From NCBI RefSeq assembly GCF_014651675.1, contig NZ_BMXI01000021.1, positions 1-64,000 on the forward strand: a stretch of DNA of 64,000 bases, read 5' to 3'. Numbering within the stretch: position 1 is the stretch's first letter; every line of letters begins with the position of its first letter. Below, piece by piece: positions 40,809-43,133 of this stretch. The position numbers and the translations under genes are program-made. The stretch is from Roseibacillus persicicus. GTDB taxonomy: Bacteria > Verrucomicrobiota > Verrucomicrobiia > Verrucomicrobiales > Akkermansiaceae. The notes under the pieces were generated by a model, which saw only the letters and a program-made list of their open reading frames with translations, was not told where the DNA came from and did no database searches.

Positions 40809-40932
40809 GGAAAGAACAATGAAGGGCAGGCGAATTTCGGCAAGGGTCTTGTGAGTATTTGCCCAACCACCGCTTCCAAGCTTTCCCTTCATCTAGGGTG
40901 GATCTTTCCTCATGCTCGGTCATGTTAGGGAC

Positions 40933-42228
40933 ATGAATCTGGCCGCGCTTCCTTCGGTTGAAAAGCTTTCGCAACGACTTGCCCAGCAATCCCAGCTGCC
41001 CAAATCCCTCGTCACCGGCTTTATCAAACGCCAGCTCAGCCCTTTTCGAGAAAGACTAATGGCAGGTGAAGAGCTCACGCGCGAAGAAATAGAAAGCGGG
41101 ATCACGGATGCTTTGGAAACCTTCGAAAGCTCGCGCCTGCAACCCGTCCTGAACGGGACCGGCATCCTGATTCACACCAATCTCGGTCGCGCCCCCCTCG
41201 GCCACCGTGCGGCCCAGGCAGTCTACGATGTCGCCACCAACTACTGTAATCTCGAGATTGACCTCACAACCGGCAAACGCGGGAAAAGAGGCGCCTTTCT
41301 CGAAGAAGCCCTCGCCATTCTCGTCGATGCCGAAGCCGCAACCGTGGTGAACAATTGCGCGGCCTCCCTCGTCCTCACCCTGCGCGCCCTGATTGCGGAA
41401 GGTAAAAACGAAGTCATTGTTTCACGAGGCGAACTCGTGGAAATCGGTGGCGGCTTCCGCATCCCGGACATCCTCGAGACCTCGGGAGCCAAACTTGTCG
41501 AAGTAGGTGCCACCAACAAGACCCACCTGCGCGATTACGAACAGGCAATCACGGACAGAACCGCCCTCATCCTGAAGGTTCATCGCTCCAACTTCTTCCT
41601 CGGTGGTTTCACCGGCGAACCCGAGCTGGAGGAGCTCTTCGACTTGGCTAAAACCCACCACATTCCCCTCGTGGAAGACTTGGGATCCGGCGCGCTCATG
41701 AACACGGACCAACTCGCCCCCATCGAGCACGAACCCCGCCCGCAAGAGCAGCTGGGCAAAGGAATCGAACTCGTGCTTTTTTCGGGAGACAAGCTTCTTG
41801 GAGGCCCCCAGGCGGGCATCATTGCAGGCCGCGCGGACTTGGTTGAGAAAATCAAGCGCGAGCCCTTCTATCGCGCGGTCCGCCCCGACAAGATGATTCT
41901 TACCGCTCTTCAGGAGGTCGTGATCGACTACCTCACTATCAAGGATGACCCCACCCGCATCGACTTGGTTCCCGTGCTTCAAATGCTCAACGAAAGTCCC
42001 GAAGACCTCCGGAGGAAAGCGGCAGATCTGCAGCAACGAATCAGCGAACCCTCGGAGATCGTGGAGACCACGGGCGCTACCGGAGGAGGAACAATGCCAA
42101 AGAGCCAATTCCCCTCGGTGGCGGTGCGCACTGCCAAGAAGCCGGACCTGCCGCACCTCTTTACGCGGGTGGAAGATGACCAGCATCACATCGACCCGCG
42201 GACTCTCCGGCAACCCGAGCGGGAATAG
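40933..42228 (+). CDS. selA: L-seryl-tRNA(Sec) selenium transferase
   Basis: SelA is a PLP enzyme converting seryl-tRNA(Sec) to selenocysteinyl-tRNA(Sec). The protein is 431 residues from the ATG at 40933 (MNLAALPSVEKLSQRL) or 438 from 40912. It shows NGTGILIHTNLGRAPL, TVVNNCAASLVLTLRAL, VHRSNFFLGGFTGEP and the PLP-lysine block FSGDKLLGGPQAGII. The length is close to the family norm (about 460). selB, selD and the Sec tRNA are not in the window. It is followed 29 bases later by a gene with an in-frame TGA, so the pair is almost certainly an operon of Sec synthesis and Sec use. Confidence 0.96.
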   Translation: MNLAALPSVEKLSQRLAQQSQLPKSLVTGFIKRQLSPFRERLMAGEELTREEIESGITDALETFESSRLQPVLNGTGILIHTNLGRAPLGHRAAQAVYDVATNYCNLEIDLTTGKRGKRGAFLEEALAILVDAEAATVVNNCAASLVLTLRALIAEGKNEVIVSRGELVEIGGGFRIPDILETSGAKLVEVGATNKTHLRDYEQAITDRTALILKVHRSNFFLGGFTGEPELEELFDLAKTHHIPLVEDLGSGALMNTDQLAPIEHEPRPQEQLGKGIELVLFSGDKLLGGPQAGIIAGRADLVEKIKREPFYRAVRPDKMILTALQEVVIDYLTIKDDPTRIDLVPVLQMLNESPEDLRRKAADLQQRISEPSEIVETTGATGGGTMPKSQFPSVAVRTAKKPDLPHLFTRVEDDQHHIDPRTLRQPERE

Positions 42229-42257
42229 TTTCCCGCCTCCACTCGTCTGATTTCGAG

Positions 42258-43133
42258 ATGAAGCTTCTCCTCCCCTTTCTATTTTCCACCCTCGTGGCTT
42301 GTTCGACTCCCAACCCTCCCACCCCGCCCGAAATTGGGGCTGTCCGTTGGCAAACGGATCATGACAAGGCTCTCGCCGAAGCTTCCAGAACAGGGAAACC
42401 CGTCTTTCTCCTCTTTCAAGAAGTCCCGGGATGAGGCCCTTGCAAAGTCTTCGGGTCCGAAGTCCTCAGCCATCCCTTGGTAGTCGAATCCATCGAAACG
42501 GATTTCATTCCCCTCCTCGTTCGCAATAACAAGCCCGGCCGAGAGGCTGAACTGTTGGAAAAGTATCACGAGCCCTCCTGGAACTTTCCCGTCGTCCGTT
42601 TTCTCAATGGCGAAGGAAGCGACCTCCTGCCCCGGCGCGACAAACTTTTCAAAGTTCCCCAGCTGCTTCCCCGCATGACAGAAGCCCTCGCGCTCTCGAA
42701 AAAGACTTCGCAAATTCTGCCCCTGGTCCAACCCGGGACCATTCGCCCCGGTCTCATCGCTCTGTCACAACATTGTTTCTGGACGGGCGAATTGGAAATT
42801 GGAGGCATCGAGGGAGTCGTAGAGACCGAAGCCGGATGGCTCAAGGGCTCGGAGGTGACCTTGGTCTATTTCGATAAAGACAAAATCACGGAAGAGAGTT
42901 TGGTAAAAATGGCCAAGGAAGATTCGTGTGCGGATGAAGTCTTTCGAGGTGCCGCTCTAAAAGGCTATCGCCCGGCGAAAGAAGCGGATCAGAAGCGACA
43001 GCTGCAAGGGACCGCTTTCGCCAAGTTGACTGACTTGACGGCCTATCAAAAGACGAAGCTCAACGCCTTTGCTCGCAGCGAGCCCGAGAAGGCGAAGCGC
43101 TATCTGACGCCCAGACAGCGGGAGAAGCTTTGA
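42258..43133 (+). CDS. Selenoprotein: thioredoxin-like lipoprotein (VPGU type)
   Basis: From the ATG at 42258 the frame runs 291 codons to 43133 with one in-frame TGA at codon 59 (42432-42434). Around it the protein reads FLLFQEVPG-U-GPCKVFGSEV, i.e. a U-x-x-C redox motif (Sec59, Cys62) where thioredoxins have C-G-P-C. The N-terminus is a lipoprotein signal with Cys15 (STLVAC). The family resembles the VPGUxxT thioredoxin-like (seleno)proteins, which continue with LSHPLVVESIETDFIPLLVR as here. The C-terminal part with HCFW (Cys173) and a VSYF-like strand resembles an MsrA-like module. It lies 29 bases after selA. A gene caller stopping at TGA would report only a fragment beginning near 42477. 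A pseudogene or sequencing error is the main alternative. Confidence 0.87.
42432..42468 (+). promoter_or_regulatory. SECIS-like hairpin after the Sec codon
   Basis: Right after the TGA (42432-42434), GTCTTCG (42447-42453) pairs with CGAAGTC (42458-42464), with one T-T mismatch, around the loop GGTC (42454-42457). TGAG (42432-42435) can pair with CTCA (42465-42468) at the base. Bacterial SECIS elements sit within the coding region just after the UGA, have an apical loop with G and U, and often a nearby unpaired U; the loop here is about 20 bases from the UGA. The 5' internal loop of 11 bases is large, so folding should be checked. Confidence 0.65.

Follow-up and report, generated by a model that had tools for sequence, protein, structure and literature searches.

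The window, a 64,000-nucleotide stretch of Roseibacillus persicicus DNA (contig NZ_BMXI01000021.1, positions 1 to 64,000), carries a gene at 42258-43133 that very probably encodes a two-domain selenoprotein, and the internal TGA of this gene (42432-42434) almost certainly inserts selenocysteine. Judged from sequence and a structure model, the most likely product is a Sec-thioredoxin that is exported, anchored by a lipid and joined in one chain to a trimmed MsrA-like domain. The gene, the conservation of its UGA, the SECIS, the decoding machinery, the folds and the conserved residues are supported by sequence and by comparison. The gene is a fresh member of the catalogued NF041383 selenoprotein family, and its C-terminal half is an MsrA-like domain that was overlooked by an earlier note on this DNA.

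Read through with TGA as U, the frame 42258-43133 (plus strand, as are all window features given here) spans 291 residues and a stop. Its sole internal TGA is codon 59, within FLLFQEVPG-U-GPC, and would place U59 as the first residue of a U-G-P-C redox motif whose resolving Cys62 (42441-42443) is invariant in alignments A1 and A2. Upstream lies selA, encoding L-seryl-tRNA(Sec) selenium transferase (40912-42228; TIGR00474, 459.1 bits, cut-off 267.9), and 29 bases (42229-42257) separate its end from the start of the gene. The N-terminus has a predicted signal peptide (42258-42302) with the lipobox LVAC, recognised by eye from the translation, in which Cys15 is encoded by 42300-42302. The earlier note had given the coordinates of the gene and of its TGA, the VPG-U-GPC position of the TGA, the 29-base distance from selA and the lipoprotein signal, and each was borne out. 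It had also anticipated that annotation would give only a fragment from about 42477; under table 11 the only ORF of at least 80 aa in the frame of the gene is indeed a TTG-started ORF of 218 aa from this position. The full frame nevertheless stands above chance, because a profile match covers residues 25-290 across the TGA and the same codon is TGA in the relatives L058 and L034. Selection is purifying on both sides of the TGA when compared with L058, whose gene is incomplete as it is cut off by a contig end (pN 0.27 before and 0.215 after; pS 0.63 and 0.76, respectively).

The whole protein, with TGA read as U, matches NF041383, the NCBIfam "VPGUxxT family thioredoxin-like (seleno)protein, type 2" (Trx_VPGUxxT_two), with 325.7 bits against a cut-off of 275, aligning residues 25-290 with positions 1-286 of 287 in the profile. 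Searching the joined protein had been suggested in the earlier note, and its VPGUxxT-type label proved correct as a family name, but the motif actually present is UxxC rather than UxxT. The family trait of U or C after VPG is seen here as VPGU, and 80/80 of the named relatives that were kept have U or C at this place. In the accessible part of PMC13188914, NF041383 is listed as a selenoprotein family with the motif VPGU, formerly OS_HP5, and therefore the family itself is already known. OS_HP5 is listed without family or motif in the accessible part of PMC9312934 and is not named in that of PMC2398784. The NCBI type of the NF041383 model is "exception", and an annotation pipeline that uses this model presumably need not miss such genes. 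The suggestion that the gene is missed by gene calling consequently holds for naive ORF calling, but an NCBIfam model for the (seleno)protein already exists.

All four of selA, selB, selD and tRNA-Sec are present in the source genome (G000, 97.48% complete). selB is found on contig C3 (324.1 bits, cut-off 242.25), selD on C13 (374 bits, cut-off 125) and tRNA-Sec on C16 (L012; 59.6 bits, gathering score 47), where ARAGORN reports SeC with the anticodon tca. The Rfam tRNA-Sec search is unspecific: a second match in G000 (L013, 47.9 bits) is a tRNA-Ser by ARAGORN, and the gathering score was exceeded in 5/14 control genomes. The tRNA-Sec call therefore rests on L012, where the Rfam search and ARAGORN agree. 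Within the window the Rfam scan gave 0 matches, and ARAGORN gave 0 tRNAs because the tRNA-Sec sits on another contig. Looking elsewhere in the genome for selB, selD and tRNA-Sec had been put forward in the earlier note, and all were found. We also observed that selD encodes a selenoprotein in its own right, its in-frame TGA falling in SSCAGU (G000:C13:136723-137652, L009). A further selenoprotein gene of G000 encodes an MsrA with GLGUFW (G000:C15:156638-157033; L130:1039-1434), and a similar MsrA with U occurs in G332 (L039).

A total of 384 genomes of the class and 14 control genomes were searched with the family profile, giving matches above the cut-off in 14 class genomes and in none of the controls. 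Together with G371, G248, G307 and G352, those 14 make up the 18 class genomes with the strongest matches, in which the equivalent of codon 59 is TGA in 7 and Cys in 11. SelB exceeds its cut-off in 7/7 TGA genomes vs 0/11 Cys genomes, and the same counts were obtained for SelA (exact one-sided p 3e-5, kinship not corrected). Among named genomes, 414 stretches encode relatives. In the best 80 of these 414 the site is U in 9, C in 71 and nothing else, counts that may favour Cys members as one of the two search patterns held Cys at the site. Seventy-one of the 80 were read by pattern (62 C, 9 U), with one mis-hit and eight pattern misses read by eye, all as C. This agrees with the expectation in the earlier note that homologues have U or C here, and the in-frame UGA aligns with Cys or Sec of homologues, as is the criterion for a bacterial selenoprotein. 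The closest of the best 80 of 414 is L058, from an uncultured Roseibacillus sp., which is 68% identical and reads VPGUGPC; the same codon is TGA in L058, L034 and 12 further loci.

These comparisons weigh on two readings in which no selenocysteine would be made. That codon 59 marks the break of a pseudogene, or that its TGA is a sequencing error for TGC or TGT, would suit the Cys found at this codon in 71 of the best 80 of 414 relatives and the fragment that table 11 yields, but we consider it highly improbable. It is refuted, as far as comparison can do so, by the shared TGA in L058, L034 and 12 more loci and by the match of TGA with the Sec machinery (both SelA and SelB above cut-off in 7/7 vs 0/11), and purifying selection either side of the TGA also argues against it. 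We give just as little credence to UGA being a true terminator, leaving a 58-aa exported peptide, with the TTG at 42477 starting a separate C-terminal protein. Whilst a mechanical ORF does run from 42477, it would start inside the thioredoxin fold and past the redox motif; moreover, Cys-type relatives continue through the codon in one frame, and a hairpin goes with the TGA.

In the favoured reading, with selenocysteine inserted at codon 59, the UGA at 42432-42434 would be decoded by the genome's own SelA, SelB, SelD and tRNA-Sec, and the hairpin at 42447-42464 would be the SECIS. This candidate, GUCUUCG-GGUC-CGAAGUC, lies at a spacing of 19 from the TGA and has 7-nt arms, in which 6/7 positions are paired with one U-U mismatch, around the loop GGUC (42454-42457). 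The SECIS-like hairpin reported in the earlier note is thus present, but folding 42432-42480, the check proposed there, gave a structure (-10.2 kcal/mol) no stronger than those of shuffles (z 0.67, not significant), and 75/200 synonymous-codon versions gave an equally or more stable fold. The SECIS model in the accessible part of PMC13188914 has a loop of 3-9 nt with G in the first two places, a stem of 4-16 bp, a spacing of 16-37 nt and an energy of at most -7.5 kcal/mol. The window hairpin fits this model in loop, stem and spacing, and against the energy limit it reaches -7.0 kcal/mol in a constrained fold and the above -10.2 kcal/mol for 42432-42480.

The candidate SECIS is convincing only through comparison across the family, not from the window hairpin alone. 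We surveyed 15 distinct TGA loci, some of which are near copies (e.g. L035/L036), and 42 Cys loci, the latter a part of their set. Mean hairpin energy in the U loci was -9.8 kcal/mol vs -4.1 for synonymous-codon versions, and in the C loci -5.0 vs -4.6. Nine of 15 U loci, the window not among them, fell at or under 10/200 synonymous versions, and 4/42 C loci at or under 3/60. An energy of -7.5 kcal/mol or lower was reached by 12/15 U loci and 10/42 Cys loci, and energy alone is a poor separator of the two. A GGUC or AGGU loop on 5 to 7 contiguous pairs was seen in 15/15 U loci vs 1/42 Cys loci, the loop types and registers having been picked after viewing the U set. The GGUC loop lies at a spacing of 18 or 19 (in L102 it is drawn as UGGUCA at 17) and the AGGU loop at 25; a conserved Gly codon partly dictates the GG of the loop, an effect already allowed for in the synonymous-codon control. 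In the U loci 102/105 stem cells are paired, and compensatory change is evident as 2-4 pair types at 11/14 stem positions, with the 18 and 19 registers pooled. One Cys member, L028 (G154:C8), has a 7-pair AGGU-loop hairpin at the SECIS position, which is perhaps a fossil SECIS or chance.

The gene has selA as its immediate neighbour in three cases: the window, L058 (where SelA is 85% identical) and G371 (L034/L134; SelA 79% identical), a genome of the same genus. Gene and selA lie on separate contigs in G268, G302, G248, G307 and G352. By tblastn over short flanks of 0.2-5 kb, the window SelA matched at 0/71 Cys loci and, among the TGA loci, only at L058 and L034/L134. A general neighbourhood with selA is ruled out within these flanks, and the link, so far as these data show, characterises one genome group of three related genomes. 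When ORFs from the 80 named loci were clustered, the query family emerged with some lineage-bound neighbours, none of which explains function. We noted in four Thermodesulfobacteriota loci (L073, L100, L103 and L105) a conserved ORF with CNMSCPVC near the Cys-type gene, radical-SAM-like by eye.

AlphaFold2 run on A2 (53 sequences) gave a model with pLDDT 93.3 and pTM 0.86, in which two domains can be recognised. The thioredoxin-like domain comprises approximately residues 25-145 (42330-42692), with a Pfam Thioredoxin_7 match at residues 30-117, and model residues 28-150 resemble DsbD-gamma, DsbH and similar thioredoxin folds (Z 12-15). The trimmed MsrA-like domain comprises residues 163-291 (42744-43130), which superpose on Clostridium oremlandii MsrA 4lwj (VIA-align) with Z 14.0 and rmsd 2.3 over 127 residues. 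Using hhalign, the second half was compared with six MsrA sequences (12 loci were tried, of which six yielded sequence), giving 98.8% over 59 columns. Here Cys173 (42774-42776, within a CFW motif) and Glu199 (42852-42854) pair with the nucleophile position and the conserved Glu of MsrA, including the genome's own, counterparts that we take to be the catalytic residues. Cys173 is invariant in 53/53 A2 members and Glu199 nearly so. In the same alignment the window protein has a 13-residue gap after the GY motif and ahead of the catalytic Glu, where MsrA carries a Tyr-bearing segment; this Tyr presumably has a functional role. The PMSR profile (PF01625) scores the window protein under the cut-off (15.3 bits vs 23.7, E 0.025) and has E <= 0.01 in 52/53 A2 members, the window protein being the exception. 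A search largely of openly accessible papers, and hence weak evidence, found no description of the MsrA-like half of the family. A search of the same scope found no literature on selenoprotein thioredoxin/MsrA-like fusions, nor any linking Roseibacillus with selenocysteine.

The two halves also occur in other arrangements. Thioredoxin-only versions with TGA are found at L035, L036 and L037, and in G352 a different contig gives a profile match of its own to the second half. That the halves are found both fused and apart suggests that they work together. L034 (G371:C150; in A1, outside A2) keeps VPGUGPC and has SGPW in place of CFW; its start, as read, lacks a signal peptide, and it sits on a long branch (1.7). 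The second active site is apparently dispensable in this protein. The MsrA-like half alone, with CFW present and a signal-like N-terminus, was observed at L038 (G316:C5).

On the mechanism that we propose, the protein would be exported and lipid-anchored, its N-terminal half acting as a DsbD-gamma-like thioredoxin with the redox centre U59-G-P-C62 and its C-terminal half as a shortened MsrA-like domain with a nucleophilic Cys173 and Glu199. A membrane DsbD-type reductase may donate electrons to the Sec-thioredoxin half, and one DsbD_TM match (66.4 bits) is present in G000. The Sec-thioredoxin half would then reduce Cys173, once oxidised, in the MsrA-like half of the same chain; this second half may act outside the cytoplasm on a sulfoxide, sulfenate or disulfide. 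Here we infer the insertion of selenocysteine itself, the location, the electron flow and the substrate. We rate the path from U59/C62 to C173, i.e. a Trx-to-MsrA cycle, somewhere between tentative and evenly balanced. A rival shares the selenoprotein part of this account and differs over the role of the second half, which would no longer be an enzyme but would bind substrate for, or lend structure to, a general Sec-thioredoxin reducing the disulfides of other exported proteins. The want of the MsrA Tyr-bearing segment, the loss of CFW in L034 with its TGA kept and the thioredoxin-only TGA versions all speak for such a role. However, a scaffold would not need the invariant Cys173 and nearly invariant Glu199 of A2, and the stand-alone second domain at L038 retains CFW. 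We regard the non-enzymatic role as quite plausible, if a little short of even.

We placed 66 members (15 U, 51 C) on a tree with the Sec/Cys position masked, its rows coming from Verrucomicrobiota, Planctomycetota, Thermodesulfobacteriota, Acidobacteriota, Actinomycetota, Bacteroidota, Myxococcota and Binatota. The Sec/Cys label requires 5 changes (bootstrap 4-6), of which well-supported branches force at least 2, and the two hairpin placements require 2 changes among the U rows. Therefore, it is likely that switching between Cys and Sec has been repeated, whichever its direction. Returning to the enzymatic reading in its fullest form, we tentatively propose an exported, self-contained sulfoxide reductase of new design, in which a Sec/Cys-thioredoxin would recycle a minimal MsrA on the same chain, the codon would have switched between lineages and the two SECIS places would be as expected from separate gains of Sec.

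Taken together, the gene offers a clean selenoprotein case, open to checking, from a Verrucomicrobia-type genome, and naive gene calling would split it in two. VPGUxxT type 2, a family with a name and no function, gains a testable one, thioredoxin plus MsrA-like. With the family already known, what is usefully added is the recognition of an MsrA-like half and the comparison of Sec and Cys members, and the 15 TGA members with their two SECIS positions should be useful for the study of Cys/Sec interchange.

In comparison with known systems, all 53 A2 members match NF041383 and have the same U/C site; UGPC is found in the window protein and the two TGA relatives nearest to it, whereas most others have [UC]xGC, and the family name is silent on the MsrA-like half. 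NF041382 (Trx_VPGUxxT_one) matches only the thioredoxin half, residues 17-144, with 100.1 bits against a cut-off of 350, leaving the C-terminal half unmatched. With the DsbD C-terminal domain and DsbH (1uc7, 2fwe and 2ju5; Z 12.1, 13.2 and 13.9, respectively) the protein has in common the fold and a CxxC-type centre, but it has Sec for the first Cys, and the gene is without the DsbD membrane domain. Although it lacks the Tyr-bearing segment of MsrA, and 127 residues align with the 205-residue chain of 4lwj, the window protein has in common with MsrA (PF01625) the fold of residues 163-291, the Cys of CFW and the Glu.
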